This document shows, piece by piece, positions 1 to 53,015 of a DNA stretch of 64,000 bases; the first letter of the stretch is position 1, and every line of letters begins with the position of its first letter. Origin of the DNA: Roseateles subflavus (GTDB taxonomy: Bacteria; Pseudomonadota; Gammaproteobacteria; Burkholderiales; Burkholderiaceae_C); the NCBI RefSeq assembly GCF_030285365.1, contig NZ_JASVDS010000005.1, forward strand, positions 248,001 through 312,000, given 5' to 3'. The translations under genes were made by a program, and so were the position numbers. The notes under the pieces were generated by a model. The model was not told the origin of the DNA and did no database searches. It worked only from the letters and a program-made list of their open reading frames with translations.

Positions 1-3
1 TCG

Positions 4-17
4 GCAAGTGCCATGCC
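4..17 (-). promoter_or_regulatory. sigma-54 promoter, reads out of the window
   Basis: On the - strand the sequence is GGCATGGCACTTGC, an excellent -24/-12 match. It reads leftward to a gene beyond the window edge and is divergent to the promoter at 70-83. Confidence 0.6.
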
Positions 18-35
18 ATGGCGCCAGGGCGGTGT

Positions 36-50
36 CGGCAAGATTTGCCG
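36..50. promoter_or_regulatory. dyad element, candidate activator site
   Basis: CGGCAA-GAT-TTGCCG is a perfect inverted repeat midway between two divergent sigma-54 promoters (4-17 and 70-83). The same dyad recurs at 28820-28834 and, degenerate, at 44219-44233 and 52652-52669. Confidence 0.5.
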
Positions 51-69
51 CAGAGCGTCGGGCGCGGCG

Positions 70-83
70 GGCACTGCACTTGC
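70..83 (+). promoter_or_regulatory. sigma-54 promoter of the glycosyltransferase operon
   Basis: GGCACTGCACTTGC, near-consensus. The predicted start site is about 95, giving a 23-nt leader that carries the CGGAGG ribosome site before the ATG at 118. Confidence 0.7.
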
Positions 84-117
84 CTTGGCTGGGCACGACA
101 CACAGCACGGAGGCGCC

Positions 118-1536
118 ATGGCAGCCCGGTCCCTACGCATCGTCCTCATCAGCGAACATGCCTCGCCCCTGGCCCAGGCCGGCAGCGTGGACGCCGGCGG
201 GCAGAACATCTACGTCGCCCACGTCGCGGCGGCGCTGGCCCGGCGCGGCCATGAGGTGGAGGTGCTCACCCGGCGCGACAGCCCCGAGCTGCCCGCGGTG
301 CAGCCGATGGGAGAGGGCGTGCGCGTGCACCACCTGGACGCCGGCCCGGCGCAGTTCATTCCGAAGGAGCAGCTGCTGCCGCATGTGCGCGACTTCGAGC
401 TCCAGGCCCGCGCGCTGCTGCGGCGGCTGCCGCCCTGCGACCTCGTGCACGCGAACTTCTTCATGTCGGGCCTAGCCGGGCTGCAGCTGCAGCGGCGTCT
501 GGGCCTGCCGCTGGTCGTGACCTTCCACGCGCTGGGCGCGGTGCGCCGCCTGCATCAGGCCGGGGCCGACAGCTTTCCGGTGGAACGTGTGGACCTGGAG
601 CGCCAGGTGGCGCACGGCGCGGACCGCGTGATCGCCGAGTGCCCCCAGGACCGGCAGGACCTGATGACCCACTACCACCTGCCCGAGCGCCAGATCACCG
701 AGGTGCCCTGCGGTGTGGACCTGCACGAGTTCCGCCCTGGCGACCTGCAGGCGGCGCGGGCCCGTCTGGGCCTGTCGCCGCGGGACTTCATCGTGCTGCA
801 GCTGGGCCGGCTCGTGCCGCGCAAGGGCATCGACAACGTCATCCGCGCGCTGTCCCGCCTGCCGGGCATCCACAACGACGAGTGCCCGCGCCGGGCGCGT
901 CTGCTGGTCGTGGGCGGTGAGTCGGAGCAGCCGGACGAGCGCCTCACGCCGGAGATCGGGCGGCTGCGCCGGCTGGCGCAGTCGCTGGGCGTGAAGGACC
1001 GCGTGCAGTTCATCGGGCGCCGCAGTCGGCCGGAGCTGGCGAGCTACTACCAGGCTGCCGATGTGTTCGTCAGCACGCCCTGGTACGAGCCCTTCGGCAT
1101 CACGCCGCTGGAGAGCATGGCCTGTGCCCGCCCGGTGATCGGCAGCGCCGTGGGCGGCATCCAGCACACCGTGGTGGACGGCGTCACCGGCTATCTCGTG
1201 CCGCCCATGGACGCCGACACGTTGGCCGCCCATCTGGACTGGCTGCGCCAGCATCCGCAGCAGGCGGAGGCCATGGGGCGCGCCGGGCTCGGGCGCGTGC
1301 GCCGCATGTTCACCTGGGACCAGGTCGCCGCGCGGCTGGAGGCGGTCTATCGCCGCGTGATGGCCGAGCGCAGCCAGCCCGTGACCGCAACCGCGGCCCA
1401 CGGCCTGGGGCTGCTGCCGGCGGGGCTGGGCCGGGTGCCGGCGGGGGCGGTGGGCATGAAGCCTCTGCTGCCCGCGCGGACGCCCTTGTGGTCCGAGCCC
1501 GCATCGGCCGTCGCGGCCTGGGGAGCCAAGGCATGA
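118..1536 (+). CDS. Glycosyltransferase family 4 (sucrose-phosphate-synthase-like)
   Basis: A 472-residue retaining GT-B glycosyltransferase, probably cytoplasmic and acting on a nucleotide sugar in surface-glycan assembly. The N-terminal domain begins RIVLISEHASPL and carries the DAGGQNIYVA loop typical of sucrose-phosphate-synthase-like GT4 enzymes. The donor domain holds LGRLVPRKGID (about residue 230) and the EPFGITPLESMACARPV E-x7-E signature (about 325). The ATG at 118 is chosen because CGGAGG lies 5 nt upstream and a sigma-54 promoter ends at 83; an in-frame ATG at 13 would sit upstream of that promoter. First gene of a seven-gene operon joined by 4-nt overlaps. The sugar specificity cannot be read from sequence. 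Confidence 0.88.
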   Translation: MAARSLRIVLISEHASPLAQAGSVDAGGQNIYVAHVAAALARRGHEVEVLTRRDSPELPAVQPMGEGVRVHHLDAGPAQFIPKEQLLPHVRDFELQARALLRRLPPCDLVHANFFMSGLAGLQLQRRLGLPLVVTFHALGAVRRLHQAGADSFPVERVDLERQVAHGADRVIAECPQDRQDLMTHYHLPERQITEVPCGVDLHEFRPGDLQAARARLGLSPRDFIVLQLGRLVPRKGIDNVIRALSRLPGIHNDECPRRARLLVVGGESEQPDERLTPEIGRLRRLAQSLGVKDRVQFIGRRSRPELASYYQAADVFVSTPWYEPFGITPLESMACARPVIGSAVGGIQHTVVDGVTGYLVPPMDADTLAAHLDWLRQHPQQAEAMGRAGLGRVRRMFTWDQVAARLEAVYRRVMAERSQPVTATAAHGLGLLPAGLGRVPAGAVGMKPLLPARTPLWSEPASAVAAWGAKA

Positions 1537-2204
1537 ACGGCGACGCGCTGCATGGCATGCGGACCGACCAGTACGGTCACCGCGCGAGCCGCCGCAAGCC
1601 GCTGCCGGGGCGCGCTGCGGTCTTCGTGCCCGAGGCCTGCGTGCTGGACTGGCACCTGCCCGACGCGGCCGATGTCGAGGCCGTGCACTGGCGTCCCCGG
1701 GCGCTCGCCGCGCTGCAGACGCTGGAGCTGCGGGGCTATCGCGTGGTGCTGGTCAACGGGGCGGAGATGGCGGAGCCCGGCGCGCAGGACCCGGCGGCAC
1801 AGGCGATGCGCTCCGCCGGCGCGAACCGGGCCTTGCTGCAGCGCCTGGCCGAGGAAGGCCAGGTGCATCCGGCCGGCATCCTCGCACCGGTGACCCCGAA
1901 GGAGCTGCCCGACGTGCTGCAGCACACGGCGCAATGCCATCGCCTGGACCTGCGCCGGGGCTGGTTCCTGAGCTGGGAGGAGGGCCTGGGTGCGGCCAGC
2001 CGGCGGGCGGGTTGCCGCAGCGTCCGGCTGATCGAGCCGGGGCGCCCCCTGCGCCGCCGCTGGCCGCTGCTGCGCGGGCATGTGCCCATGAAGTTCGTCG
2101 ATGCGGCGGCCTTCATCCTCCGCTGCGACGGGCATCCGCCCGCGGAGTTCGAGGGCGAGGGGCCCACCGCGCCGGCCGCCACCCCCTGCGCCTGCCGTCC
2201 ATGA
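1533..2204 (+). CDS. Degenerate HAD-like protein (GmhB-related), probably non-catalytic
   Basis: A 223-residue protein overlapping the previous gene by ATGA. Its plan follows heptose-bisphosphate phosphatases: AVFVPEACVLDW occupies the place of the catalytic AVFLDRDGTL motif, and LRGYRVVLVNG the place of the second (VVVTNQ) motif. The nucleophilic DxD aspartates and the later K and GD motifs are not visible, so phosphatase activity is unlikely. A canonical GmhB is present at 20764-21393, so this copy may be a scaffold, a regulator or a decaying gene. The HAD relationship is inferred from motif layout only. Co-translated with heptosyltransferase-like genes. Confidence 0.65.
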   Translation: MNGDALHGMRTDQYGHRASRRKPLPGRAAVFVPEACVLDWHLPDAADVEAVHWRPRALAALQTLELRGYRVVLVNGAEMAEPGAQDPAAQAMRSAGANRALLQRLAEEGQVHPAGILAPVTPKELPDVLQHTAQCHRLDLRRGWFLSWEEGLGAASRRAGCRSVRLIEPGRPLRRRWPLLRGHVPMKFVDAAAFILRCDGHPPAEFEGEGPTAPAATPCACRP

Positions 2205-11707: not shown

Positions 11708-12024
11708 GATGCCCCGTCTGCGTGAAGGAGTGATCCCGGCCCTGGGCACGCGCCGTGCCTGCATGGACCGGCCGCTGGCCCTTCGGGAGATGCGGGGCCC
11801 CGCCGGCGGCCGGGTAGAACTTGCGGCAAGCCCCAGCCGGCCCGAGCGGTCACCGCGGCACGTCAAATCCGGTTACGCCAGCTTTCAACTGCAGGGCAGG
11901 AATCCGCGGGTGGGTCGGTCATAGTGCTGGCTTCGGCAACGCAGGGGCGGGCGGCTGGCGACGGCAGCGGCGTCGTGAGAGCGGCTTGAGAAGCGCCTGT
12001 GAAGGGCTTGAGAAGGGCTTGAGA

Positions 12025-14241
<2,217 letters not shown>

Positions 14242-14255: not shown

Positions 14256-17174
14256 TCACGGCGAGGGCATCGAGGCGGCCTCGGCCCCCGGCGCTTGCGC
14301 GATCAGGCGCAGCACCAGCTCGGGGTCCACGGGCTTGGTGAGGTGGTGGTCGAAGCCGGCTGCGATCGCCTCCCGGCGGTCCGCCTCCTGGCCCCAGCCG
14401 GTGATGGCGATCAGCACGGGCCGCTCCCCGCCCGGCAACGCCCGGATCGCGCGGGCCACCTCCTTGCCGTCCTGCAGCGGCATGCCGATGTCCAGCAGGC
14501 AGACATCGGCGGCGTCGGCGCGGAACGCCGCCACGGCCTGCTCGCCGTTGTAGGCGCACGTGACGCGGTGGCCGTGCATCTGCAGCAGCGCGGACAGGGT
14601 CTGGGCCGCCTCCTCGTTGTCGTCGGCGATCAGCACGTGGCGGGCGCGTGTCGGCGGCGTCGTCTCGTCGCTGGCGTGCGGCGCCGGCTCTCGCGCGGCG
14701 GGCTGGCTGATGTGCAGCAAGGGAATGCGCACCGTGAAGTGGCTGCCGCAGCCGGGGCCCGCGCTGAAGGCGCTGATGCGGCCGCCGTGCAGGCTCACCA
14801 GCCCGCGCGCGAGCGCCAGGCCGATGCCCAGGCCGCCGCCGGGCTTCCCCTCGTCGCCGCTGCCCAGGCGCGTGTACATGTGGAAGACCTCCGACAGCGA
14901 CTGCGGCGGCATGCCGATGCCGTTGTCGCTCACCTCGATGCACAGCGAGCCGTGCGCAGCCTCGGCCCGCAGTCGGATCACGCCGCCGGCGTCCGTGTAC
15001 TTGGCGGCGTTGCTCAGCAGGTTGGCGATCACCTGCGACAGTCGCAAGGCATCCGCATCGAAGCGCAGCGGCTGTGGTGGCAGCTCGACCAGCAGCTGGT
15101 GCTGCTTGGCATCGATCAGGGGGCGCACGGCCTCGACCGCATGGGAGACGATGCTGCCGAGCTCCGCGCGCTCCAGGCGCAGCAGCAGGGCGCCGCGGGC
15201 GATGCGCGAGATGTCGAGCAGATCGTCGAGCAGCAGTGCCATGTGGCGGACCTGCCGGTCGATCAGCTCGTTGCCCCAGCGCTTCTGCTCCTCGCTGGCA
15301 CCGGTCGCGCTGGAGAGATGGGCGGCCTGCCGGATGGGCGCGAGCAGGTTGCGCAGCTCGTGCGCCAGCGTGGCGATGAACTCGTCCTTGCGCCGGTCGG
15401 CGTCGCGCAGCAGCTGATCGTGATGCATGCGATCGCTGACGTTGGCGGCCCACAGGGCCACGGAGGAACCCATGGGCGAGGCGATGCAGTGGAAGGTCTG
15501 GCCGGGCCCGCGGCCCGCGGGGTCGGCAGGGAGCGTGAATTCGAACTCGCAGGGTTCGCCCTGGCGCAACGCCCGCCGGGCATGGGTCAGCACGTCCGGC
15601 CGCTGTTGCCAGAAGCCCGGGTGAATGCTCAGCACCGGCCGTCCGATGACCTGCTCGCGCGTGCGCCGCAGGACCCGGGTCGCGGCGGTGTTGAGGTAGT
15701 CCAGGCGGAAATCCTCGACCTCACCCCGCGTGCCGTGCAGCGGGCTGAACACGGCGAAGGGCACGGCCGACGCATCCAGCACCGACTCGAAGCGCAGCTC
15801 CGAGGCCTCCAGCTCCGCCCGCGAGCGGGCGCGCTCGATGAAGTGCGCGGCCTTGTTGGCGCACATGTCCATGGCCGCCCGCTCCCGGGCGCTCGGCAGG
15901 CGCGCCTCGGGCAGGAAGACGCTCATGGCGCCCATCAGCTCGCCGCGGTCGTTGAGCAGGGGCAGGGCATGGACGGCATGGAGCTGATGCCGGGCCATGA
16001 GTTCGCGCATGGCATGGCAGCGCGGGTCGCGCTGGAGGTCGCTGACCAGCACGCGGGTGCGCTCCCGCATGGCGATGCCGCAGAGGCCGCCCTCCGTGGC
16101 CATGCGGTCGAGCGCCTCGCCCGGCACGTCGGAGAAGCCGATCTGGACCGAGCGCCGCGGCAGGTTTGCCTCCTGCACCGTGATCATCCCGTGCTGGCTG
16201 CCATGGATCTGCAGCGCCGTGGCCAGCACCTGCTGCAGCTGGGTGTCGAGCGTGCCGGGCACCAGCAGGCGCATGCTCAGCTCGTGCAGCCGATGCAGGT
16301 CCTCGAGCTGGGCGCCCAGCGAGGCCTTGACGCCGAGCAGGTCCGCCTCGGCCCGCTTGCGGGCGGTGATGTCGATGGCGGCGGCCTGCACATGGCGCGC
16401 GCCATCCTGCGCGTCGGCGCGGACCTGCCCGCTCAGGAGGATCCAGTAGGGCAGGCCGTCGGCGTCGGTCAGGTTCAGCTCATGGAGGAAGACCGGCTCG
16501 CGGCGGGACCCGAGCTCGTCGAGCAGCAGGTGCAGACGCTGGGCGCTCGGCGCGGGGAGCTGGCGCAGCCACTCGTCCAGCGGCACGGCGGTCGCCTGCC
16601 AGGGCAGCTGCAGCATCTCGGCGAAGCGGGCCGAGGCCTGTACGCTGCGCCGCTGCAGGTCGATCTCGACGAGACCCAGCCCGGCGTTCTCGATGTGCAG
16701 GCGCTCGGTGGACGCGGCCCGGTCGCGCGCCGCGTCCTGCCGCCTCGTGTGCCGGGCCACCAGCCCGATCAGGAGCACACCGCACAAGGCCTTCACCAGC
16801 AGCTCGGCGGGCGGCGTCGGCGGGCCGGGGCTGGAGAGGGTCAGGCTCAGCAGCCAGGGCAGGGCCCAGGAGGCGCTCAGGAGCGTGAGGCCGGCGGCAG
16901 CGCCGAAGTACAGCGAGAACACCAGCGCCAGGGGCAGCACCGCCCCGTCGAGAAGCCGGGCGGGCAGATCGGGCGTCCATCCGTCGAGGGCCAGGCCGAG
17001 CTCCCAGCCCAGGAAGTGGCTGACGGCGGTCAGCGCGCGGCCTGGCAGACCGCCACCGGCGTCGGTGCTCGGCCCGTGCCGGGCCAGGTACAGCTGAAGG
17101 GCGGTGACGAGCAGGGCTGTCGTCAGCGCGTAGGCGTGCGCTTGCCAGCGCTTCGGGCTCCCTGCGGTTGGCAT
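14256..17174 (-). CDS. Hybrid sensor histidine kinase with PAS-GAF-PAS sensing modules
   Basis: A 972-residue protein. Several N-terminal hydrophobic segments (residues about 15-30, 80-125, 128-142) make a membrane module. It is followed by a PAS domain ending VQAAAIDITARKRAEADL (about 150-275), a GAF domain (about 295-445), a second PAS (about 455-590), HisKA with TLAHELRNLLAP (about 605), HATPase with NLLSNAAKYTDAGG and DNGIGMPP, and a receiver with LLDIGMP (about 895). It ends 14 nt from the convergent hybrid kinase. Two hybrid kinases back to back suggests a phosphorelay, but no separate Hpt protein is visible in the window. Confidence 0.88.
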   Translation of the reverse strand: MPTAGSPKRWQAHAYALTTALLVTALQLYLARHGPSTDAGGGLPGRALTAVSHFLGWELGLALDGWTPDLPARLLDGAVLPLALVFSLYFGAAAGLTLLSASWALPWLLSLTLSSPGPPTPPAELLVKALCGVLLIGLVARHTRRQDAARDRAASTERLHIENAGLGLVEIDLQRRSVQASARFAEMLQLPWQATAVPLDEWLRQLPAPSAQRLHLLLDELGSRREPVFLHELNLTDADGLPYWILLSGQVRADAQDGARHVQAAAIDITARKRAEADLLGVKASLGAQLEDLHRLHELSMRLLVPGTLDTQLQQVLATALQIHGSQHGMITVQEANLPRRSVQIGFSDVPGEALDRMATEGGLCGIAMRERTRVLVSDLQRDPRCHAMRELMARHQLHAVHALPLLNDRGELMGAMSVFLPEARLPSARERAAMDMCANKAAHFIERARSRAELEASELRFESVLDASAVPFAVFSPLHGTRGEVEDFRLDYLNTAATRVLRRTREQVIGRPVLSIHPGFWQQRPDVLTHARRALRQGEPCEFEFTLPADPAGRGPGQTFHCIASPMGSSVALWAANVSDRMHHDQLLRDADRRKDEFIATLAHELRNLLAPIRQAAHLSSATGASEEQKRWGNELIDRQVRHMALLLDDLLDISRIARGALLLRLERAELGSIVSHAVEAVRPLIDAKQHQLLVELPPQPLRFDADALRLSQVIANLLSNAAKYTDAGGVIRLRAEAAHGSLCIEVSDNGIGMPPQSLSEVFHMYTRLGSGDEGKPGGGLGIGLALARGLVSLHGGRISAFSAGPGCGSHFTVRIPLLHISQPAAREPAPHASDETTPPTRARHVLIADDNEEAAQTLSALLQMHGHRVTCAYNGEQAVAAFRADAADVCLLDIGMPLQDGKEVARAIRALPGGERPVLIAITGWGQEADRREAIAAGFDHHLTKPVDPELVLRLIAQAPGAEAASMPSP

Positions 17175-17471
17175 GGGTTCGTGCCCCTATGGATGCTCTG
17201 TGGTCTTGTCAGGCTCCGGGTCTCCGGATGCTTGCGGGGGGGGAGAGACGCCTGGCGCGCTATTGAAGCACATCGATGGTGGGTGTGTGTAGGGAAGCGT
17301 CGGGGCTCCGGGCCTCCCCGTGAATGCACGGTGGCTCACGGGGCGGACCCGATCAAGGGATGGGCGGGAGAGGCCGCCCCGCAGACCGCGATGGGGCGCG
17401 CGATGCGCAGGGCGGCGTGGGCGTCGGCACCAGCGGCGGGAACGCCGATTGCCGTGTGGGCCGGGCAGCCG
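17175..17471. other. Intergenic region without a supported gene
   Basis: About 300 nt upstream of the - strand hybrid kinase. No reading frame with a ribosome site or recognisable domain, and no sigma-54 motif in the orientation of the kinase. Probably holds its unidentified promoter. Confidence 0.5.
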
Positions 17472-17664: not shown

Positions 17665-17678
17665 GCAACGCGCGTGCC
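17665..17678 (-). promoter_or_regulatory. sigma-54 promoter of the 52-residue membrane protein
   Basis: GGCACGCGCGTTGC on the - strand, near-consensus. Predicted start about 17653, leader 23 nt. Confidence 0.68.
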
Positions 17679-17740: not shown

Positions 17741-17856
17741 AATACCCGTGGGTGGGGCGTGCATTTGAGGCGCTGGCGCTGCAAGATGCACTCGCCCCGG
17801 CGGGGATCGGGGGCCTGATTCGAGGCACCGGCTCGGACTTCAAGAAGGGGAATGGT

Positions 17857-19428
17857 GTGGCACATGCGCTGATCGTGGATGACGATGGCGACGCGGCGGA
17901 ATCCTTGCAGGCGCTGATCGCGGCGGAGCACTTCACGGTGTCTGTCGCCTACAGCCTGCGCGATGCCCGGCGGCATGTCGCGATGCAGCCCCCGGATCTG
18001 GTGCTGCTGGACCTCGAACTGCCGGACGGCAACGGCATGGACCTCTTCACGGACGCCCAGCTGGTCGCCAACTCCGAGATTGTGCTCATCACCGGGCACG
18101 CCTCGCTCGAGACCTCCATCCAGGCGCTGCGCCTCGGGGCGGCGGACTACCTCGTCAAGCCCATCAACCTGCGCCATCTGCAGGGCGTGCTCTCGCGCGT
18201 GATGCGCCCGGCCGTCCTTCAGGCCGAAGTGGCGGACCTCCATGCCCACCTGGCGCAGGCCGGCAATTTCGGCCACCTGTGGGGCCGCGCCCCGGCCATG
18301 CTGCCGGTCTACGAGCAGATCTCGCGCGTGGCGGGCACGGGGGTGTCGGTCTTCATCCAGGGTGAGAGCGGCACCGGCAAGGAGCTCGTGGCCCAGACGG
18401 TGCACGACCTGAGCCGGCGCCGCAAGAAGCCCTTCCTGGCGGTGAACTGCGGCGCCATCTCGCCCAACCTCATCGAGAGCGAGATCTTCGGCCACGAGAA
18501 GGGCGCCTTCACGGGCGCGGACCACCAGCATCAGGGCTTCTTCGAGCGCGCCTCCGGCGGCACGCTCTTCCTTGACGAGCTGACGGAGATGCCGCTGGAG
18601 CTGCAGGTCAAGCTGCTGCGCGTGCTCGAGACGGGCCGCTACATGCGCGTGGGCTCGACGCAGACGATGGAGGCCGACGTCCGCGTGATCGCGGCCTCGA
18701 ACCGGCCGCTGATCCAGGCGGTCGAGGCGGGGAAGCTGCGCGAGGACCTGCTGTACCGGCTCAACGTCTTCCCGATCGAGCTGCCGCCGCTGCGCGACCG
18801 CCTGAGCGACGTCCCCCTGCTCGCCGGCCACTTCCTGCGGGCCATCTCGGCCAAGGAGGGGCAAGCCAAGCAGTTCAATGCCGCGGCCATGGAGCGCCTG
18901 TGCCGCTACCGCTGGCCGGGCAATGTGCGCGAGCTGCGCAACGCCGTGCAGCGGGCCTATGTGATGGCCAGGGGCGAGATCATCAACGAGCAATGGCTGC
19001 CGGCGGCGGACCTGCCGCCGCCCGAGGGCGCCGAGGCAGGGCTGGCGGTGGACCTCGCACCGGTGCCGGTGCCGCCGGCGGTGTCGGCCGCCTTCCCGAC
19101 GGAGCCCGCGGCGGTCCCGGCGGAGTCTGCCGGCCTGGGCGTGCCCGGTCTGCCGGCCCGGGGCGTCGCAGGCCGGGAGTCGGAGCCGGGCCCTGCCCCT
19201 GGCGCCAGCGTGCCGGACGCCCTGGTGCTGCCCATCGGCTGCTCCATGGCGGAGATCGAGCGGCGCTTCATCCTGGCCACGCTGCAGCACTACAAGCAGC
19301 ACAAGGAGCGCACCGCCGCCGTGCTGGGCATCAGCCTGAAGACGCTTTACAACCGCCTCAAGGAGTATGCGGCGGCGGACGGCGGCGCGGCCTCGTCCAG
19401 TGATGCGGAGCTCGGCGGGCGATCCTGA
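17857..19428 (+). CDS. NtrC-family sigma-54-dependent response regulator
   Basis: A 523-residue bacterial enhancer-binding protein. Receiver (1-120): LIVDDDGD acidic pocket, phospho-acceptor D52 in LVLLDLELPDG, K in YLVKPI. AAA+ domain (about 140-380): Walker A GESGTGKE (168), the sigma-54-contacting GAFTGA loop (about 216), Walker B GGTLFLDEL (about 233) and WPGNVREL. A proline/alanine-rich linker of about 75 residues precedes a C-terminal Fis-type helix-turn-helix (TAAVLGISLKTLYNRLKEY). The GTG at 17857 follows AAGAAGGGG; another in-frame GTG at 17752 is possible. Its 3' end overlaps the convergent GT gene by 82 nt. Likely activator of the many sigma-54 promoters in this window (inference). 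Confidence 0.92.
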   Translation: MAHALIVDDDGDAAESLQALIAAEHFTVSVAYSLRDARRHVAMQPPDLVLLDLELPDGNGMDLFTDAQLVANSEIVLITGHASLETSIQALRLGAADYLVKPINLRHLQGVLSRVMRPAVLQAEVADLHAHLAQAGNFGHLWGRAPAMLPVYEQISRVAGTGVSVFIQGESGTGKELVAQTVHDLSRRRKKPFLAVNCGAISPNLIESEIFGHEKGAFTGADHQHQGFFERASGGTLFLDELTEMPLELQVKLLRVLETGRYMRVGSTQTMEADVRVIAASNRPLIQAVEAGKLREDLLYRLNVFPIELPPLRDRLSDVPLLAGHFLRAISAKEGQAKQFNAAAMERLCRYRWPGNVRELRNAVQRAYVMARGEIINEQWLPAADLPPPEGAEAGLAVDLAPVPVPPAVSAAFPTEPAAVPAESAGLGVPGLPARGVAGRESEPGPAPGASVPDALVLPIGCSMAEIERRFILATLQHYKQHKERTAAVLGISLKTLYNRLKEYAAADGGAASSSDAELGGRS

Positions 19429-20729: not shown

Positions 20730-20743
20730 GCAAGTGCCGTTCC
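20730..20743 (-). promoter_or_regulatory. sigma-54 promoter, leaderless configuration (GT4)
   Basis: GGAACGGCACTTGC on the - strand. Twelve nt separate the -12 GC from the ATG at 20717, so the transcript would begin at about 20718. Confidence 0.55.
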
Positions 20744-22211: not shown

Positions 22212-22331
22212 GATCGGGCGATGCGCGCTCAGGCGTGGAGTTCAGGACGGCGGCAGGGGAGCAGGGCGCGTGCCCGGCCCTCGCCTCGCACGCGGCCCCG
22301 CGGCGCCGGGCGGGCGTTGCCCCCGGGCCTC

Positions 22332-22345
22332 GGCATGCGCCTTGC
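22332..22345 (+). promoter_or_regulatory. sigma-54 promoter of the DUF883/holin-X operon
   Basis: GGCATGCGCCTTGC. Predicted start about 22357, with a comparatively long 119-nt leader to the ATG at 22476. Confidence 0.6.
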
Positions 22346-24643: not shown

Positions 24644-24657
24644 GCAAGCCTCATGCC
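24644..24657 (-). promoter_or_regulatory. sigma-54 promoter of the PA2169-family gene
   Basis: GGCATGAGGCTTGC on the - strand. Predicted start about 24632, leader 69 nt. Confidence 0.62.
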
Positions 24658-24677: not shown

Positions 24678-27080
24678 TCAGTGCGCCTCGGCGTCGGCGG
24701 ACGGGCGGTGGCTGGCCATGGCCCGGCGCAGGGCGTCCAGCAGCTGGGACGGCGAGCAGGGCTTGCGCAGGATGATGACTCCCGGCGCCTCGCGCTGGAC
24801 GTCGCTGTAGCCGCTGATCAGCACGGCGGGCAGCTCCGGGCGCAGGGCGCGCAGGGCCTGCACGAGGGTCGGGCCATCCATGCGGCCGGGCATCATGACG
24901 TCCGACAGCACCACGTCGATGCCGGCGCCGGTGCCGAAGCGGCGCAGGGCCTCGTCGGCATTGAAGACGCAGATGACCTGGCAGGAGAAGGACCGCAGCA
25001 GCGAGGCCGTGATGCGGCTGAGCTCCTCGTTGTCCTCCACCAGCAGCACGCGCGCGCCGGCCAGGCTGCCATTGGCCGGCGGGCCGCCGGCCGGCCCGGT
25101 GCCGTGGCGGTTCTGCGTGGCCGGCAGCAGCAGGGACACCACGGTGCCGCCCTCGGGCGGGCTTGCGATGCAGGCCGTCCCGCCGGCCTGCACGCAGAAG
25201 CCGAGGACCTGGCTCAGGCCGAGGCCGGTGGCGCGTCCGGCCGGCTTGCTGGTGAAGAAGGGCTCGAAGACGCGCGGCAGGATGTCCGCCGGAATCCCGG
25301 GACCGTTGTCGGCCACTTCGATCAGCACGTACTCGCCCGGTGCCAGCCCCTGAGTCTCCTCCGGGCGGGCGTAGCGCAGCGCGAAGTGCACGCGCCCGCT
25401 GCTGTTCAGGGCGTCCCGCGCGTTCAGCGCGATGTTGATGAGGGCCAGCTCCAGCTCGGACGGGTCGACCGTCACGAGCAGCAGGCTCGGCTGCAGGTCC
25501 ATGCTGAGCTCGACCCGCTTGCCCAGCACGGTGCTGAGCAGCACCCGCAGGTCGTTCAACATGCTGGCGAGGTCCAGCGCCTGCGGATGCACGGACTGCT
25601 GGCCGGCGAAGCGCAGCAGGTGCTGCGTCAGCCGGCTGCCGATCTCCACCGAGCGGCGGATCGCGCCCAGCGGCACCTGCACGCCCTCGGCCTGGACATG
25701 CCGCTGGATGAGGTGGGCGCTGTTGCTGATGATGCCCAGCAGGTTGTTGAAGTCGTGCGCCACACCGCCGGTGAGGCGGCCCAGCGCGGCGATGCGCTGG
25801 CTGCGCGAGCTGAGCTGCTCGTTGGCGCGCGTGCGCTCCACGGCCTCGCTCACCCGGCGCTCCAGCTCGCTGCGGGCCTGGCGCATCGTCTCGCTGGCGC
25901 TGACCAGGGCGCGCGAGACGTTGTCCCACTCCGCGATGCCGGTCTGGCGCTCGCGCAGCGGCCGGCCCGACTGCAGGGACTGGGCCATCGAGGTCAGTTC
26001 GTCCAGCGGCCGGGCGATGCGCCGGCTCAGCCACAGGGCGCCCGCGATCCCCGTGGCCATCAGGACCAGGGCCGTGGCGAGGATGGGCACGAGCGGCTGC
26101 GCGGCCGGTGCACCGAGGCCGCCGGGCGGCGCGATGAGCAGCACGCTCCACCCCTGCGGCGAGGTGCTGAAGAAGGCCGTTACGGGCGCGCCGGCGGGAT
26201 CGGCCCCCCGGAACAGCGCCTCGTCGTGCGCCTGCATCTGCGCCTGCAGCGCCGGCCAGGTGCCGAGGTCGACGCGCGGGGAGTCGGCCCCGGCGACATG
26301 CGTGAGGTCCTGACCGCGGCTGTCGAGCACGGCGGCCCGCCAGCCCGGCGGCAGCTCCTGGCGATCGACCAGGCGCCGGATCTCCTGCGGCAGGAGCGTG
26401 ACCTCGACGTTGGCCAGCACCTGCCCCCGGCGCTCGACCGGCTGCAGGAGCGAGAGATGCGCCGGCACGCCGGGGGGCAGGGCCTGGCCCTCGACGAGCC
26501 CGTCCACCACCGGCCGGTTCGCCAGCGGCGACGCGCCCGGTGCGCGCGGCTGGCGCGAGCCCGGTGGCGCGGCGGCTGGTGTGTCACCCCCGACGCCGCG
26601 GGTGCTGAACAGCACCTCGTCGGCCGTGTTCAGCTGCACCCAGCCCTCCAGGCCCTGCATGGCCCGTGCGGCCTGCTCCTGCAGGCGCTGCAGCGGCACG
26701 GCGTCGAGGGACGGGAGATGGTCCAGCTCGCCGGACAGCGCCAGCACACGGGCGATGGTCGCGCGCTGCGCCAGCTCGCGGTCCACGCTCATGGCGAGCG
26801 CCCGCGCGTCGTCCCTCAGCTGGCGGGCCTGGCGTTCCTCGCTGGCGCCCCAGGCCGTCCAGAGGGAGGCCACGGTGCCGGGCAGGGCGACGGCCAGGAC
26901 CAGCCACACCAGGCGCGCCCGCAGCGACAGCGCCGGCGTGACGGCGCGGCCGAGCAGATGCTTCAGCCGCTGGCCGAGCCGGCGCCAGCCCGGCACCCGC
27001 AGGGGGCTCATCGGGCGATCGACATCATCGCGTTCAAGCATGGGCCGATATCCAACACGCCAGGAGGTGACCCACTTCAA
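24678..27080 (-). CDS. Hybrid sensor histidine kinase/response regulator
   Basis: An 800-residue membrane kinase. TM1 (LVWLVLAVALPGTVASLWTAW) at about 56-76, a periplasmic sensor of about 250 residues, TM2 (ILATALVLMATGIAGALWLS) near 330-350, then HAMP (RRIARPLDELTSMA). A NtrB-like HisKA follows, GRLTGGVAHDFNNLLGI (phospho-His about 446), then HATPase with NIALNARDAL, DNGPGIP and GLGLSQV, and a receiver (VLLVEDNEELS) with Asp in VVLSDVMMP (about 725). The TTG at 27080 overlaps the upstream stop (TTGA) and is favoured by coupling; ATG at 27041 is an alternative. Last gene of the sigma-54-driven BON-permease-kinase operon, so signalling may feed back on itself. Confidence 0.86.
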   Translation of the reverse strand: MKWVTSWRVGYRPMLERDDVDRPMSPLRVPGWRRLGQRLKHLLGRAVTPALSLRARLVWLVLAVALPGTVASLWTAWGASEERQARQLRDDARALAMSVDRELAQRATIARVLALSGELDHLPSLDAVPLQRLQEQAARAMQGLEGWVQLNTADEVLFSTRGVGGDTPAAAPPGSRQPRAPGASPLANRPVVDGLVEGQALPPGVPAHLSLLQPVERRGQVLANVEVTLLPQEIRRLVDRQELPPGWRAAVLDSRGQDLTHVAGADSPRVDLGTWPALQAQMQAHDEALFRGADPAGAPVTAFFSTSPQGWSVLLIAPPGGLGAPAAQPLVPILATALVLMATGIAGALWLSRRIARPLDELTSMAQSLQSGRPLRERQTGIAEWDNVSRALVSASETMRQARSELERRVSEAVERTRANEQLSSRSQRIAALGRLTGGVAHDFNNLLGIISNSAHLIQRHVQAEGVQVPLGAIRRSVEIGSRLTQHLLRFAGQQSVHPQALDLASMLNDLRVLLSTVLGKRVELSMDLQPSLLLVTVDPSELELALINIALNARDALNSSGRVHFALRYARPEETQGLAPGEYVLIEVADNGPGIPADILPRVFEPFFTSKPAGRATGLGLSQVLGFCVQAGGTACIASPPEGGTVVSLLLPATQNRHGTGPAGGPPANGSLAGARVLLVEDNEELSRITASLLRSFSCQVICVFNADEALRRFGTGAGIDVVLSDVMMPGRMDGPTLVQALRALRPELPAVLISGYSDVQREAPGVIILRKPCSPSQLLDALRRAMASHRPSADAEAH

Positions 27081-28738: not shown

Positions 28739-28752
28739 GCAAACGCCGCGCC
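28739..28752 (-). promoter_or_regulatory. sigma-54 promoter of the BON-permease-kinase operon
   Basis: GGCGCGGCGTTTGC on the - strand. Predicted start about 28727, leader 39 nt. Confidence 0.6.
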
Positions 28753-28819
28753 CGTGCCGCTGTCTTCGCGGGCGGGGGATGAGAGGAAGCGAGGCGCGGC
28801 GGCGGGCCAGCAGAAGTTG

Positions 28820-28834
28820 CGGCAAATCTTGCCG
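28820..28834. promoter_or_regulatory. dyad element, candidate activator site
   Basis: CGGCAA-ATC-TTGCCG, a perfect inverted repeat. The 16 nt TGCGGCAAATCTTGCC are shared exactly with the opposite strand of the element at 36-50. Confidence 0.55.
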
Positions 28835-29046
28835 GTGTCGCCGGCGGCGGCGCTGGCGCTGGCGGCCCTTGTCCACGAAGCGAACGGCGGGGCCTCACCG
28901 CGACGCCGGGCTACGCCTGCTTACACACGGGACATCGACCGTCAGTGGCCCCGCGCCGCGCCCGGCAGAGCGGGCAAATCCGGCACCTGCGGCGCGGGCT
29001 GGCACGCGGTCCGCAGCGCCGGTCATCGGCCGTTGCGGAGCGGGTC

Positions 29047-29060
29047 GGCATGGGACTTGC
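29047..29060 (+). promoter_or_regulatory. sigma-54 promoter of rpoN (autoregulation)
   Basis: GGCATGGGACTTGC followed by AAA, a very good match. Predicted start about 29072, leader 46 nt to the ATG at 29118. Confidence 0.7.
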
Positions 29061-31149: not shown

Positions 31150-31163
31150 GGCACACGGCTTGC
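31150..31163 (+). promoter_or_regulatory. sigma-54 promoter of the small lipoprotein gene
   Basis: GGCACACGGCTTGC followed by T, essentially consensus. Predicted start about 31175, leader 35 nt. Its -24 is 12 bp from that of the divergent promoter. Confidence 0.7.
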
Positions 31164-32540: not shown

Positions 32541-32554
32541 GCAAGTCCCATTCC
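32541..32554 (-). promoter_or_regulatory. sigma-54 promoter of the PRC-barrel gene
   Basis: GGAATGGGACTTGC on the - strand. Predicted start about 32529, leader 51 nt. Confidence 0.6.
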
Positions 32555-34649: not shown

Positions 34650-35026
34650 GCGCCGTTCGGCGGCCGCGGAGCGCGGCCGGCGCCGCATGCCCGAAGCGGC
34701 ACACCTGTCGGCAAATCCTGCGGCAGAGCGGGGGACGCGTCCCGGCGGGCCCGGGCATCGCCGCGCCGCCCCATCGGCGCCGGAATCTCCGGGGGCTCCC
34801 GCACGGGGGGCGGCCTCTCGATGGGCTCCGGCTCGTCGATCTCCGGCGGCGGCGGGTCGGGCGAGCGCTGCGGCCCATGCGGCGGCGGTGACAGCGGCGG
34901 CAGCTCGGGCGGGATCGGCGGATTGATGTGGGCCTCCCACGCCGGCGGGGGGGGCAGCAGCGGGGTGATGAGCAGGGCCATGGGCATGGCCACCGGCTGG
35001 GCGAGGGGCAAGGGGGTGGTGGGCAT
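34646..35026 (-). CDS. Proline-rich protein with N-terminal hydrophobic segment
   Basis: A 126-residue protein. LPLAQPVAMPMALLITPLLPPPP is a short hydrophobic start, then a region about one-third proline (PPIPPELPPLSPPPHGPQRS, DPPPPEIDEPEPIERPPP) and a basic end. It could be an extended periplasm-spanning or surface segment. AGGAG lies 6 nt before the ATG at 35026 and a sigma-54 promoter 30 nt upstream of it. First gene of a four-gene operon with ATGA coupling to the next frame. No homologue recognised. Confidence 0.65.
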   Translation of the reverse strand: MPTTPLPLAQPVAMPMALLITPLLPPPPAWEAHINPPIPPELPPLSPPPHGPQRSPDPPPPEIDEPEPIERPPPVREPPEIPAPMGRRGDARARRDASPALPQDLPTGVPLRACGAGRAPRPPNGA

Positions 35027-35093: not shown

Positions 35094-35107
35094 GGCGCGC
35101 GCCTTGC
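35094..35107 (+). promoter_or_regulatory. sigma-54 promoter of the SDR gene
   Basis: GGCGCGCGCCTTGC. Predicted start about 35119, leader 23 nt containing GAGGAG. Confidence 0.58.
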
Positions 35108-36169: not shown

Positions 36170-36183
36170 GGCGCACGGATTGC
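36170..36183 (+). promoter_or_regulatory. sigma-54 promoter of the GT4 gene
   Basis: GGCGCACGGATTGC. Predicted start about 36195, leader 35 nt with AAGGAG. Confidence 0.6.
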
Positions 36184-38291: not shown

Positions 38292-40817
<2,526 letters not shown>

Positions 40818-40856: not shown

Positions 40857-40870
40857 GGTATGGCGATTGC
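40857..40870 (+). promoter_or_regulatory. sigma-54 promoter of the DUF6496 gene
   Basis: GGTATGGCGATTGC. Predicted start about 40882, leader 50 nt. Confidence 0.5.
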
Positions 40871-42047: not shown

Positions 42048-42254
42048 TTACTCGCCGTCCTGTTGGGCCGGTGTCTGGCGGCTCTTGCCTTCGGCTTCCT
42101 GCTTGGTGGCGCCGGCCTGCGACTTGCGCGGCTCGTCCTGGCCCTTGCGGGCCTCGGTGCCGGGCTTCTTCTCGGCCTGGCCGTCGTTGCGGGTGTCCTT
42201 GCGGCCGTCGTGGGGGCTGTCGCTGTGGCTGTCGTTGCGGTTCTGTTGAGTCAT
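42048..42254 (-). CDS. Small highly charged hypothetical protein
   Basis: A 68-residue, almost wholly polar protein (QNRNDSHSDSPHDGRKDTRN and GQAEKKPGTEARKGQDEPRK) with no hydrophobic segment: very likely intrinsically disordered, comparable in composition to hydrophilin/KGG-type stress proteins though no motif is exact. AAAGGATC lies before the ATG at 42254. A strong sigma-54 promoter (42304-42317) and intrinsic terminator bracket it as a single-gene unit, which supports it being real. Confidence 0.7.
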   Translation of the reverse strand: MTQQNRNDSHSDSPHDGRKDTRNDGQAEKKPGTEARKGQDEPRKSQAGATKQEAEGKSRQTPAQQDGE

Positions 42255-42303: not shown

Positions 42304-42317
42304 GCAAGCCCCATGCC
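42304..42317 (-). promoter_or_regulatory. sigma-54 promoter of the small charged protein
   Basis: GGCATGGGGCTTGC on the - strand. Predicted start about 42292, leader 38 nt. Confidence 0.65.
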
Positions 42318-44197: not shown

Positions 44198-44211
44198 GCA
44201 AGCGCCTCGCC
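44198..44211 (-). promoter_or_regulatory. sigma-54 promoter of the carbamoyltransferase gene
   Basis: GGCGAGGCGCTTGC on the - strand. Predicted start about 44186, leader 24 nt. Confidence 0.52.
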
Positions 44212-44218
44212 CGCGCGG

Positions 44219-44233
44219 CGGCAAGTTCTGCGG
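44219..44233. promoter_or_regulatory. dyad-like element, candidate activator site
   Basis: CGGCAA-GTT-CTGCGG, two mismatches from the perfect dyad, followed by a further GCAAATC half. Lies between divergent promoters 44198-44211 and 44287-44300. Confidence 0.42.
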
Positions 44234-44286
44234 CAAATCCGGGCGGACCGTCGGCCCCGGGAACGCAGCGGCCGGTGCCCGCGCCG

Positions 44287-44300
44287 GGAACGCCAGCTGC
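44287..44300 (+). promoter_or_regulatory. sigma-54-like promoter, leaderless configuration (ugd)
   Basis: GGAACGCCAGCTGC; CTGC rather than TTGC at -12. Twelve nt separate it from the ATG at 44313, so transcription would begin 1 nt before the start codon. Confidence 0.45.
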
Positions 44301-48597: not shown

Positions 48598-49764
<1,167 letters not shown>

Positions 49765-49775
49765 GCGGCGCTTCG

Positions 49776-49789
49776 GCAGGCCGCATGCC
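49776..49789 (-). promoter_or_regulatory. sigma-54 promoter, leaderless configuration (glf)
   Basis: GGCATGCGGCCTGC on the - strand. Eleven nt separate the -12 GC from the ATG, the same geometry as at 38265-38278. Confidence 0.52.
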
Positions 49790-49808: not shown

Positions 49809-49822
49809 GGCATGAGGATTGC
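49809..49822 (+). promoter_or_regulatory. sigma-54 promoter of the long DUF883-like gene
   Basis: GGCATGAGGATTGC. Predicted start about 49834, leader 41 nt. Confidence 0.62.
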
Positions 49823-51340: not shown

Positions 51341-51354
51341 GCAATCCACATGCC
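51341..51354 (-). promoter_or_regulatory. sigma-54 promoter of the hemerythrin gene
   Basis: GGCATGTGGATTGC on the - strand. Predicted start about 51329, leader 22 nt. Confidence 0.62.
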
Positions 51355-51380: not shown

Positions 51381-51394
51381 GGCACGGCATTTGC
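51381..51394 (+). promoter_or_regulatory. sigma-54 promoter of the glycine-zipper gene
   Basis: GGCACGGCATTTGC, near-consensus. Predicted start about 51406, leader 67 nt. Divergent to 51341-51354. Confidence 0.68.
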
Positions 51395-51472
51395 CTCACG
51401 GGCCCCACCACACGCCGGGCCAGCGGCCCTCGCGTGCGCCTTCCTCCCTCGTTCCCATCGGAGACCCTCGCC

Positions 51473-52036
51473 ATGACCGACATCACCACGCCCCACACGC
51501 CCGCCTCCGCGAGCGCCCACACGCCGCCGCATGTCACGGCGCTCTTCCCCGACCGCGACGCCGCGGAGCGCGCCTACCAGGTGGTCGTCGACCGGGGCTA
51601 CCGCCGGGAGGACGTCAATGTGCTGATGTCCGAATCCACCCGCCACCGGCTCTTCCCGGCCGACGAGGCCCGTCCCACCGAGCTGGGCACCAAGGCGGCC
51701 GAAGGCACGGGCGTGGGCGCGAGCATCGGCGGCGCGCTGGGGGCGCTCGTCGCGGGGATTGCGGCGGCCGGCACCACGCTGGCCATCCCGGGGCTGGGCC
51801 TCGTCATCGCCGGCCCGCTGGCCGCCGCCCTGGCCGGTGCCGGCCTGGGGGGCACGGCGGGTGGCCTGGTCGGCGCCCTCATCGGCTGGAACATCCCGGA
51901 GGAGCGCGTCAAGGCCTATGAATCGGGCCTGCGCGACGGCGGCATCCTGCTCAGCCTGCGGCCGCGCAGCGAGGAGGACGCGCGTTACGTCGAGGCGCAG
52001 TGGCAGGCGATGCAGGGCCGCACCGCGGGCATCTGA
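51473..52036 (+). CDS. Glycine-zipper general-stress-type protein
   Basis: A 187-residue protein. TALFPDRDAAERAYQVVVDRGYRREDVNVLM resembles the YflT/heat-induced stress domain (about 20-65). A long Gly/Ala zipper follows (GASIGGALGALVAGIAAAGT and AALAGAGLGGTAGGLVGALI, about 82-140), likely membrane-inserting, then RVKAYESGLRDGGILLSLRP, a repeat of the ferredoxin-like strand pattern. The family is common in stress regulons and has no known biochemical activity. GGAG lies 9 nt before the ATG. Confidence 0.75.
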   Translation: MTDITTPHTPASASAHTPPHVTALFPDRDAAERAYQVVVDRGYRREDVNVLMSESTRHRLFPADEARPTELGTKAAEGTGVGASIGGALGALVAGIAAAGTTLAIPGLGLVIAGPLAAALAGAGLGGTAGGLVGALIGWNIPEERVKAYESGLRDGGILLSLRPRSEEDARYVEAQWQAMQGRTAGI

Positions 52037-52062
52037 AGCCCGGACCGGCCCGGGCGCCCGGC

Positions 52063-52548
52063 TCAGCCCAGAGAGGCGGCCGGGGCCCGCACGGCTTCGG
52101 CGCCCGGGCGCCCCGCGCTGCGCCGCTCGGGCCGTGCCGGCAGCGAGATGGCGCGCAGCGTGGACTCCACGCCGGCCGGGTAGCGCGCCGCGAAGTCGCC
52201 CAGCGAGACCACGCCCACCAGCCGGTGGTCGCCATCGACGACCAGCAGCCGCCGGATCTGCACGCGCGCCATTTCAGCCAGCACGTCGCGCGCATCCGCA
52301 TCGCCCGCACACACGCGCACGGTGCCGCTCATGATGTCGCCCACGCGCGTGGCGGCCGGGTCCAGACCGGCCGCCACGGCCCGCACGGCGATGTCCCGGT
52401 CCGTGATGATGCCCAGCACCTCGCCCTGCTCGCAGACGGGCAGGGCGCCCACATTGAGCTCGTCCATGAGCTGTGCAGCCCGCTGCAGCGTCTCGCGCGG
52501 GCCGATGGAGACGGGGTCCGGCGTCATGATCTCGGCGGCTTGGGTCAT
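52063..52548 (-). CDS. Two-CBS-domain protein, second copy
   Basis: A 161-residue paralogue of 32611-33120. The CBS pair is AAEIMTPDPVSIGPRETLQR to GIITDRDIAVRAVAAG, then VGDIMSGTVRVCAGDADARD to GVVSLGDFAARYPAGV. Probably binds an adenine nucleotide. The C-terminal 30 residues are basic and unstructured. GGAGGA precedes the ATG at 52548 and a consensus sigma-54 promoter gives a 23-nt leader. Divergent to the DUF2789 gene. Confidence 0.88.
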   Translation of the reverse strand: MTQAAEIMTPDPVSIGPRETLQRAAQLMDELNVGALPVCEQGEVLGIITDRDIAVRAVAAGLDPAATRVGDIMSGTVRVCAGDADARDVLAEMARVQIRRLLVVDGDHRLVGVVSLGDFAARYPAGVESTLRAISLPARPERRSAGRPGAEAVRAPAASLG

Positions 52549-52582
52549 GGGTCCTCCTGCAATGTCCGTGAACCGCACAGGG

Positions 52583-52596
52583 GCAAGGCCCGTGCC
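52583..52596 (-). promoter_or_regulatory. sigma-54 promoter of the second CBS gene
   Basis: GGCACGGGCCTTGC, near-consensus, on the - strand. Predicted start about 52571, leader 23 nt. Confidence 0.68.
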
Positions 52597-52651
52597 CGCC
52601 CGCCCGGACGGCGGTGGCGCGACTTCGCGGCCGCGCCACCGGCACGGTCAG

Positions 52652-52669
52652 CGGCAGTTCTTGCGGCAG
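52652..52669. promoter_or_regulatory. dyad-like element, candidate activator site
   Basis: CGGCAG-TTC-TTGCGG plus a following CAG, a degenerate form of CGGCAA-N3-TTGCCG between divergent promoters 52583-52596 and 52696-52709. Confidence 0.42.
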
Positions 52670-52695
52670 CCCCTGCAAAGGGCCTGGCATGCCAT

Positions 52696-52709
52696 GGCAC
52701 GCGGCCTGC
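52696..52709 (+). promoter_or_regulatory. sigma-54 promoter of the DUF2789 gene
   Basis: GGCACGCGGCCTGC preceded by T. Predicted start about 52721, leader 25 nt. Last such site seen going rightward. Confidence 0.6.
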
Positions 52710-52745
52710 CGCAGGCACGGGCGACGGCACACAGGACTTCCCGCC

Positions 52746-53015
52746 ATGACCCCCATGAACCACCGCTTCTCGGAACTCTTCGCCCAGCTCGGCCTGCCGG
52801 ACCACCCCGAGGAGATCCGGCACTTCCTCTGGCAGCACTCGCCGCTGGACCCCGGCCTGCGCCTCCACGAGGCGCCGTTCTGGACGACCTCCCAGGCCCA
52901 GCTGCTGAGCGAGGAGCTGGCCGCCAATGCCGACTGGGCGCAATTGGTGGACCAGCTCAGCACCGCCCTGCGCACCGCGCACCTCTCGGGGGATGAGGAC
53001 GAGGCGCTGGAATGA
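52746..53015 (+). CDS. DUF2789 family protein
   Basis: An 89-residue small soluble protein. MNHRFSELFAQLGLPDHPEE, then IRHFLWQHSPLDPGLRLHEA, FWTTSQAQLLSEELAANADW and AQLVDQLSTALR match the DUF2789 pattern found across proteobacteria; no function is known. Start at 52746, with an in-frame ATG at 52755. No strong ribosome site (ACTTCCCGCC). Sigma-54 promoter with a 25-nt leader. Confidence 0.82.
   Translation: MTPMNHRFSELFAQLGLPDHPEEIRHFLWQHSPLDPGLRLHEAPFWTTSQAQLLSEELAANADWAQLVDQLSTALRTAHLSGDEDEALE

Follow-up and report, generated by a model that had tools for sequence, protein, structure and literature searches.

Paralogues of sigma-54 (RpoN) with separate regulons are already known. In Cereibacter (Rhodobacter) sphaeroides, the RpoN paralogues have separate regulons and cognate activators (PMC11999139, PMC3162934), and RpoN1 and RpoN2 differ in the base discriminated at promoter position -11 (PMC11999139). 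In Ralstonia solanacearum, an rpoN1 mutant grown in minimal medium no longer expresses rpoN2, and the role of rpoN2 is called enigmatic (PMC4371752), with neither a metabolic nor a virulence role attributed to it (PMC4676750). We analysed a 64,000-nucleotide stretch of the Roseateles subflavus genome (contig NZ_JASVDS010000005.1, positions 248,001-312,000; hereafter the window), which holds a second rpoN gene, rpoN2, amid a cluster of sigma-54-type sites. Judging from sequence comparison, we think it probable that RpoN2, using a variant -24/-12 promoter, transcribes an island at window positions 1-53,015 with about 20 such sites before stress-type and envelope genes; the activator encoded at 17752-19428 likely assists it.

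Like R. solanacearum rpoN2, whose expression needs rpoN1 (PMC4371752), the gene in the window is the second rpoN of a betaproteobacterium. Unlike R. solanacearum rpoN2, for which no role was found, it comes with a candidate regulon, the two genes being compared here by description. The paralogues of C. sphaeroides, an alphaproteobacterium, serve nif and flagellar genes, whereas the island belongs to a member of the Burkholderiales and carries stress-type and envelope genes; it shows in addition a bias at -26 and a clustered arrangement, and the RpoN box of its sigma factor is changed. Bradyrhizobium DOA9 likewise has two RpoN factors, RpoNc and RpoNp, and the accessory one is tied to stress adaptation; RpoNp, however, is megaplasmid-borne with 22 predicted targets, and the available part of the report describes no clustered island (PMC13207237). 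Sigma-54 control of the cell surface is also seen in Aquincola, where the PEP-CTERM gene pepA depends on RpoN1 and a two-component activator system, PrsK-PrsR, is proposed (PMC9850573). Unlike that system, the activator and one kinase of the island score below the PrsR and PrsK cut-offs, and the pepA promoter reads TGGCAC/CTGCTT. In the titles and abstract openings searched, we found no RpoN2 stress regulon of Burkholderiales, no clustered stress-and-envelope island, no changed RpoN box and no -26/-11 pattern; one paper of the search, PMC4843759, concerns RpoH.

Genomes, contigs and loci of our sample are labelled G, C and L, respectively, in which G000 is the R. subflavus genome itself (5.05 Mb, 23 contigs), C19 is the 354,016-base contig holding the window, and G001 and G002 are two congeners used for footprint comparison. 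Gene starts were taken from a home-made gene caller, and the 50 called proteins of the window, together with one missed by the caller, were scanned with Pfam and some of them with NCBIfam. The bare core GG-N10-GC occurs 2352 times in the window, in line with the caution of an earlier note on this sequence that it is common in GC-rich DNA. The strict pattern GGCAY-N5-TTGC has 13 matches, compared to a mean of 1.35 and a maximum of 6 in 100 dinucleotide shuffles, and 12 of the 13 are intergenic with a same-strand gene downstream at 33-490 nt (genes as called here). The remaining 290 kb of C19 hold seven strict matches, two of them intergenic, and the whole genome holds 133, against 33 for the reversed pattern.

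Because circularity was to be avoided, a sigma-54 weight matrix was trained only on other genera, using the upstream regions around second-rpoN loci of 12 genomes outside the genus. At a score of at least 12, this held-out matrix gives 25 matches in the window, 19 of which are intergenic, on the right strand and no more than 300 nt upstream of a start; at a score of at least 10, the same holds for 22 of 35. In 16 of the 19 well-placed sites, 11-80 nt separate the GC of the motif from the start codon, so that transcription starting about 12 nt further on would begin about 0-70 nt before the codon, as the earlier note had stated. Sites scoring at least 12 are found in 18 of the 40 upstream regions of the window, where shuffles give an expectation of 0.28, and in 18 of the 34 regions of the island compared to 20 of 1048 elsewhere (Fisher 1e-19). 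The genome background, about one third of the genome, consists of C19, the initial 1.28 Mb of C1 and the initial 80 kb of C12, and no 54-kb stretch of this DNA outside the island exceeds three sites. Adding the demands of a base other than T at -26 and of C or T at -11 leaves 16 of 34 island regions and 9 of 1048 elsewhere. The antisense control is high, with 13 of the 40 window regions scoring at least 12, which we take as an effect of divergent promoters within one intergenic region.

Footprint comparison gave the same picture. A site is kept before 15 of 16 orthologues of sited genes in G001 and 9 of 10 in G002, compared to 0 of 31 and 0 of 16 orthologues of unsited genes. As shuffles, the rest of the genome and congener conservation agree, the cluster of predicted sigma-54-type sites is real and ends near position 53,000. 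That the motif excess merely reflects GC-rich composition, as the abundance of the bare core might suggest, is scarcely credible and is refuted by the lack of any excess in shuffles, in the reversed pattern, in coding DNA and in the rest of the genome. A clustered sigma-54 regulon in which stress-type genes are combined with genes for surface glycans, as the earlier note had proposed, is thus supported by the held-out matrix, shuffles, genome background, congeners, about 40 related loci and the second rpoN. The checks by weight matrix and by orthologous loci that it had called for came out in its favour; the clustering of motifs before starts was confirmed, but only about 20-22 of them were recovered here instead of its 26. 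It had not seen that there are two rpoN genes in the genome, that the one in the island is a distinct paralogue with altered DNA-reading residues and promoters of their own -26/-11 pattern, or that a candidate enhancer and a co-inherited activator accompany it.

The genome carries two rpoN genes, the housekeeping one on C1 (RpoN1) and the one in the window (RpoN2), the products of which share 40% identity. RpoN2 exceeds the curated cut-offs of all three Pfam domains (PF00309, 47.2 bits; PF04963, 169.7 bits; PF04552, 195.1 bits) and those of the NCBIfam models TIGR02395 (400.6 versus 277.35) and NF009118 (PRK12469; 497.6 versus 396). The RpoN box, which contacts -24, and the helix-turn-helix, which contacts -12 (PMC7057263), are both altered. 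The box reads ARRTVTKYRQ in RpoN2 and ARRTVAKYRE in RpoN1, a difference of two residues in ten. Among the aligned proteins, all 27 RpoN1 rows carry RRTVAKYRE, whereas 36 of the 41 RpoN2 rows carry RRTVTKYRQ, the other RpoN2 boxes being RRTVTKYRR, RRTVSKYRG, RRTVTKYRT and, twice, RRTVAKYRT. Similarly, of the rows in which the helix-turn-helix could be read by the search pattern, 22 of 23 RpoN1 rows show TTAKY or TTQKY and 31 of 32 core RpoN2 rows show TNNKY. Alignment to the sigma-54 chain 7qv9_M places the changed residues at 386, 387, 459 and 463.

In a maximum-likelihood tree, the 41 RpoN2 and 27 RpoN1 rows fall on opposite sides of one branch (support 100/99), and the 36 core RpoN2 rows group at 100/100, whereas the distant rows G056, G115, G405, G022 and G157 either take positions between the core and RpoN1 or have weak placement. 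Among named relatives, those closest to RpoN2 are from Pelomonas sp. BJYL3 and Mitsuaria sp. WAJ17 (79% identity). A sigma-54 domain was found in all of 30 genomes, that of R. subflavus included, and two copies in G000, G001, G002, G013 and G022. The second rpoN of G013 (G013:C12:61967-62437) is truncated, with an open frame of 191 residues, and its locus keeps four intergenic sites.

The cluster recurs around relatives of RpoN2. Thirty named loci, which span Roseateles, Pelomonas, Mitsuaria, Aquabacterium, Variovorax, Hydrogenophaga, Comamonas, Delftia and metagenome-assembled genomes, hold 157 strict matches, 142 of them intergenic, compared to four for the reversed pattern. The same clustering surrounds the second rpoN in G001, G002, G013 and G022 and in further genera; at the G404 locus one of three strict matches is intergenic. 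The neighbourhood of the housekeeping rpoN (40 kb) has no cluster, with four strict matches, one of them intergenic.

Tables of the bases at -26 and -11 were drawn up from strict, intergenic matches no more than 300 nt from a start in 38 loci; L150 and L151 were dropped as duplicates of G001 and G002, and the distant G022, G157, G115 and G405 were treated separately. Among the 145 island sites other than those of rpoN2 itself, -11 is C in 120 and T in 22, and only 11 have T at -26. The 31 sites before rpoN2 have a purine at -11 in 28 cases and T at -26 in 11. The two classes differ at -11 (Fisher 7e-26) and at -26 (2e-4), both values uncorrected for kinship; when one of twelve close Roseateles loci is kept, -11 is a pyrimidine in 101 of 104 island sites and 3 of 20 rpoN2-own sites. 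The 16 strict intergenic sites elsewhere in the R. subflavus genome have T at -26 in nine and a purine at -11 in nine. Pyrimidines at -11 are thus found at 142 of 145, 3 of 31 and 7 of 16 sites in the three classes; a paralogue-specific base at -11, of the kind known from C. sphaeroides, may underlie the contrast between the first two, while the third is mixed. The differences between promoters fall in places matching the changed DNA-reading parts of RpoN2, as deduced by alignment.

We further compared genomes with and without RpoN2. A match at E<=1e-118 defines an RpoN2-bearing genome, and 21 of 150 family genomes qualify. As 147 of the 150 have a sigma-54 of some kind, orthologues in genomes lacking RpoN2 serve as the control. 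DUF2383 genes were matched in 40 of the 150 genomes and BON genes in 95, and 30 loci of each were examined. A site precedes the DUF2383 gene in 11 of 13 RpoN2-bearing genomes and 3 of 17 others (p 0.0006), or 1 of 15 others when the incomplete G440 and G497 are left out (p 5e-5). For the BON gene the figures are 6 of 12 and 0 of 18 (p 0.0016). When G465 and G466, which have additional sigma-54 genes below the RpoN2 bar, are counted as bearers and G440, an assembly in which no sigma-54 gene was found, is dropped, DUF2383 gives 11 of 15 versus 2 of 14 (p 0.0025); BON, with G465 counted as a bearer and G440 dropped, gives 6 of 13 versus 0 of 16 (p 0.0036). Altogether, the predicted promoter sites go with RpoN2 and not with RpoN1.

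These counts bear on whether housekeeping RpoN1 reads the island promoters as it would any sigma-54 promoter, with rpoN2 a mere neighbour or a redundant copy. A sigma-54 gene is present in nearly every family genome, the core GG-N10-GC is canonical, sites in the rest of the genome show no uniform base class at -11, and R. solanacearum RpoN2 functions in E. coli (PMC4676750), all of which would suit such a reading. We nevertheless regard it as unlikely, since the DUF2383 and BON sites track RpoN2 although nearly all genomes have a sigma-54, T at -26 is found in 9 of the 16 sites elsewhere compared to 11 of the 145 island sites, and the neighbourhood of rpoN1 lacks a cluster.

The predicted activator is a response-regulator enhancer-binding protein (Sigma54_activat, 229 bits; HTH_8, 38 bits) with the GAFTGA motif at residue 251. 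It is present in 20 of 21 RpoN2-bearing family genomes and in 4 of the 129 others (p 6e-20). Two of these four are G465 and G466, which thus combine the activator with extra sigma-54 genes below the RpoN2 bar and possibly hold a diverged form of the system. The activator falls below the NtrC cut-off (TIGR01818, 395.6 versus 558.6 bits), and identity with the PEP-CTERM pair PrsK-PrsR was rejected, as the activator scores 339.1 against a cut-off of 502.6 (TIGR02915) and the kinase 24678-27011 scores 66.2 against 300 (TIGR02916); this kinase alone of three hybrid kinases in the island was scanned against NCBIfam. Two of the aligned activator sequences, G002:C107:6968-8323 and G463:C132:357506-358720, were flagged with one internal TAG each.

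Upstream regions in which the promoters had been masked share a palindrome, tgCGGCAA-N3-TTGCCGca, with a log-likelihood of 407 compared to 29-48 in four roughly dinucleotide-preserving shuffles. A palindrome matrix trained without the genus gives, at a score of at least 14, eight matches in the island, six of them intergenic (8,306 intergenic bases), compared to 14 on C1, five of them intergenic (189,126 intergenic bases). The existence of this element, to which the promoter motif is related, raises the question of whether GGCA-N7-TGCC could itself be the binding site of another dimeric regulator and no promoter, the more so as many island sites end in TTGCC and form an imperfect dyad and the palindrome is enriched in the same regions. 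We hold this to be very improbable and rejected it on orientation and asymmetry. The site is asymmetric and oriented, with 19 of the 25 window matches scoring at least 12 facing a same-strand start within 300 nt. Moreover, the spacing of the palindrome differs from that of the site, dyad-breaking T or G also occurs at -11, and the sites track a sigma-54 gene, which in turn tracks an AAA+ activator.

Taking the sites as promoters of RpoN2, we propose a cascade from one sigma-54 factor to the other. The activator would be fed, through phosphorylation upon a kinase signal, by at least one of the three hybrid kinases. The activator, together with the RpoN1 holoenzyme, would start rpoN2 from its purine -11 promoter. 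RpoN2 rather than RpoN1 would read the variant flanks, and the RpoN2 holoenzyme with the activator, which may bind the palindrome CGGCAA-N3-TTGCCG, would open the promoters with C or T at -11. As one of these lies before the activator gene, the activator would gain from RpoN2 in a positive loop. RpoN1 is placed before RpoN2 because of the promoter class of rpoN2 and the dependence of R. solanacearum rpoN2 on rpoN1. We do not claim that the two factors are fully separate, since RpoN2 of R. solanacearum can partly replace RpoN1.

A number of observations weigh against this proposal. Strict separation of the factors is at odds with the complementation of an E. coli rpoN mutant, and partly of an rpoN1 mutant, by R. 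solanacearum rpoN2 (PMC4676750), provided that this gene belongs to the present group. Only 11 of the 31 promoters of rpoN2 carry T at -26, and the sites elsewhere are mixed at -11; the RpoN1-type label therefore rests mainly on -11 at rpoN2. Distant RpoN2 loci break the C/T rule, as in G022 (C5 locus, L062-L065; box RRTVAKYRT), where -11 is G in six of six sites, and the rule may shift between RpoN2 groups. The tree is unrooted and its distant rows are intermediate or weakly placed, and it therefore does not show that the 41 RpoN2 share one origin. The G117 locus (20 kb) has no strict match. As to the correlation with RpoN2, half of the RpoN2-bearing BON rows have no site, RpoN2-bearing G432 and G474 have no DUF2383 site, and a DUF2383 site is kept in RpoN2-lacking G440 (80% complete), G497 (76% complete) and G221 (score 10.4). 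Neither G465, with three sigma-54 genes, nor G466, with two, has a DUF2383 site, their extra copies being below the RpoN2 bar. Two of the eight island palindromes are in coding DNA, and the intergenic ones scoring at least 14 occupy only five island regions, four of which have sigma-54 sites. Finally, the start codons depend on the home-made caller, by which at least one gene was missed.

The predicted regulon has two sides (Table 1). The glycan side comprises the operon 118-6384, the heptose-type operon 11707-9631, the glycosyltransferases 19347-20717 and 36230-37405, and glf, with weaker sites before ugd and the carbamoyltransferase. The stress-type side comprises the genes for DUF2383, BON, PRC-barrel, hemerythrin, CBS (52063), two DUF883-like proteins, DUF6496 and DUF2789. 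Most of the genes named in the earlier note (hemerythrin, BON, PRC-barrel, DUF6496, DUF2789, two DUF883, glf and glycosyltransferases) have sites of at least 12, the DUF883 assignments being below the Pfam cut-off. Only the first of its two CBS genes (52063-52548) has a site, as none of at least 10 precedes the second (32611-33120). Its DUF4142 site scores 10.3 and lies inside an upstream reading frame, its carbamoyltransferase and ugd sites are weak here but strong in the congeners, and the Pfam scan of 50 window proteins gave no YeaQ-type (PF04226) match. Across 26 loci from other genera, sites most often precede rpoN2 (18), BON-like genes (9) and genes for an OmpA-type barrel (8), followed by those for PF04226 (7), DUF883-like (5), DUF2383 (5) and hemerythrin (4) proteins. 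The sited cargo, namely hemerythrin, BON, PRC-barrel, DUF2383, CBS, glycosyltransferases and glf, suggests surface or oxidative stress; the catalase gene 38292-40709 in the island has no own site scoring at least 10. RpoS is encoded on contig C20, over cut-off.

The divergent promoter pair at the start of the window is conserved in G001, and the gene C19:247177-247776 on its outer side is called beta-barrel-like from its translation. After the glycosyltransferase operon, an open frame at 6347-7435 (+) was skipped by the gene caller; its beginning resembles that of an NAD-dependent epimerase. The top-scoring site outside the island (18.5) precedes a Crp-type regulator gene on C1 (C1:1117014-1119291; L139:17014-19291), and the GGDEF gene after it has a weaker site of 12.3. 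These two genes are possible dispersed members of the regulon.

Table 1. Genes, predicted sigma-54 sites and candidate enhancers of the island in window coordinates. Scores are from the held-out matrices; G001 and G002 scores are those of the congeners.
Feature	Coordinates	Strand	Sigma-54 site (strand)	Score and remarks
Beta-barrel-like gene, just outside window	C19:247177-247776		4..17 (-)	Strict match; 71 or ~227 nt before start, by gene model
Candidate enhancer between divergent sites at 17 and 70	33..53	.		21.8
Glycosyltransferase operon	118-6384		70..83 (+)	13.7; G001 16.2
Heptose-type operon (nucleotidyltransferase, PfkB, SIS)	11707-9631		11746..11759 (-)	15.2; G001 12.0, G002 12.1; Pfam, NCBIfam
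Hybrid histidine kinase, candidate sensor	12025..14241	+		Pfam
Hybrid histidine kinase with GAF and PAS, candidate sensor	14256..17174	-	17665..17678 (-)	Strict match, 14.2; 490 nt before called start; Pfam
Response-regulator enhancer-binding protein, predicted activator	17752..19428	+	17439..17452 (+)	17.8; 299 nt before start; Pfam receiver, AAA+, Fis-type HTH
Glycosyltransferase (missed by caller)	19347-20717		20730..20743 (-)	14.8; Pfam GT4; frame conserved in G001 and G002
Short-chain dehydrogenase	21390-22211		22261..22274 (-)	13.3; G001 and G002 sites at other distances
DUF883-like gene	22476-22796		22332..22345 (+)	16.5; G001 16.8; Pfam below cut-off
DUF2383 gene	24102-24563		24644..24657 (-)	18.1
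Hybrid histidine kinase, candidate sensor	24678..27011	-		Pfam
BON-domain gene	28287-28688		28739..28752 (-)	12.2
Two overlapping candidate enhancers (CGGCAA-N3-TTGCCG) between BON and rpoN2	28805..28837 (starts 28,805 and 28,817)	.		14.2, 21.0
rpoN2, second sigma-54 factor, 503 aa	29127..30638	+	29047..29060 (+)	14.7; 66 nt before start; A at -11, C at -26; Pfam AID, CBD, DBD over cut-off
Small gene	31210-31479		31150..31163 (+)	16.9
PRC-barrel gene	31600-32478		32541..32554 (-)	12.0; congeners 16.4, 15.7
Candidate enhancer, region without strong sigma-54 site	34706..34726	.		17.5; nearest site 35094-35107, 10.5
Glycosyltransferase	36230-37405		36170..36183 (+)	14.8; congeners 14.9, 13.2
DUF6496 gene	40932-41165		40857..40870 (+)	14.9; G001 15.3
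Small gene	42048-42254		42304..42317 (-)	15.6
Carbamoyltransferase	42324-44162		44198..44211 (-)	Weak, 8.2; both congeners 14.5 at 33 nt; site coordinates derived from 35-nt distance to start
Candidate enhancer between carbamoyltransferase and ugd	44216..44236	.		17.4
ugd	44418-45854		44287..44300 (+)	Weak, 10.9; congeners 14.1, 13.8
glf	48598-49764		49776..49789 (-)	15.2; congeners 12.9, 15.8
DUF883-like gene	50034-50447		49809..49822 (+)	15.8; congeners 14.1, 16.7; Pfam below cut-off
Hemerythrin gene	50525-51307		51341..51354 (-)	18.3; G001 16.5
Glycine-rich gene	51473-52036		51381..51394 (+)	16.5; G001 10.3; no Pfam match
CBS-domain gene	52063-52548		52583..52596 (-)	15.2; G001 19.6
Candidate enhancer between CBS and DUF2789	52649..52669	.		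14.3
DUF2789 gene, last of island	52746-53015		52696..52709 (+)	12.2; G001 14.2; T at -26

More broadly, we lean slightly towards the view that Burkholderiales hold a separate sigma-54 channel, in which RpoN2 with rebuilt -24/-12 reading residues has its own promoter alphabet, RpoN1 and a dedicated activator switch it on, the activator is amplified, and a stress-and-envelope programme is run from one inherited island. General stress would then be switched by sigma-54 with ATP-driven activation, where otherwise a sigma-70-type factor would serve. For an enigmatic second rpoN such as that of R. solanacearum, the island supplies a candidate regulon with a candidate enhancer and a partner activator, a promoter pattern distinct at two flank bases, and a cascade that can be tested. 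If true, it would represent a natural pair of sigma-54 factors that a few changed residues of RpoN box and helix-turn-helix keep apart in one cell, which would be useful for understanding and building separate transcription channels.

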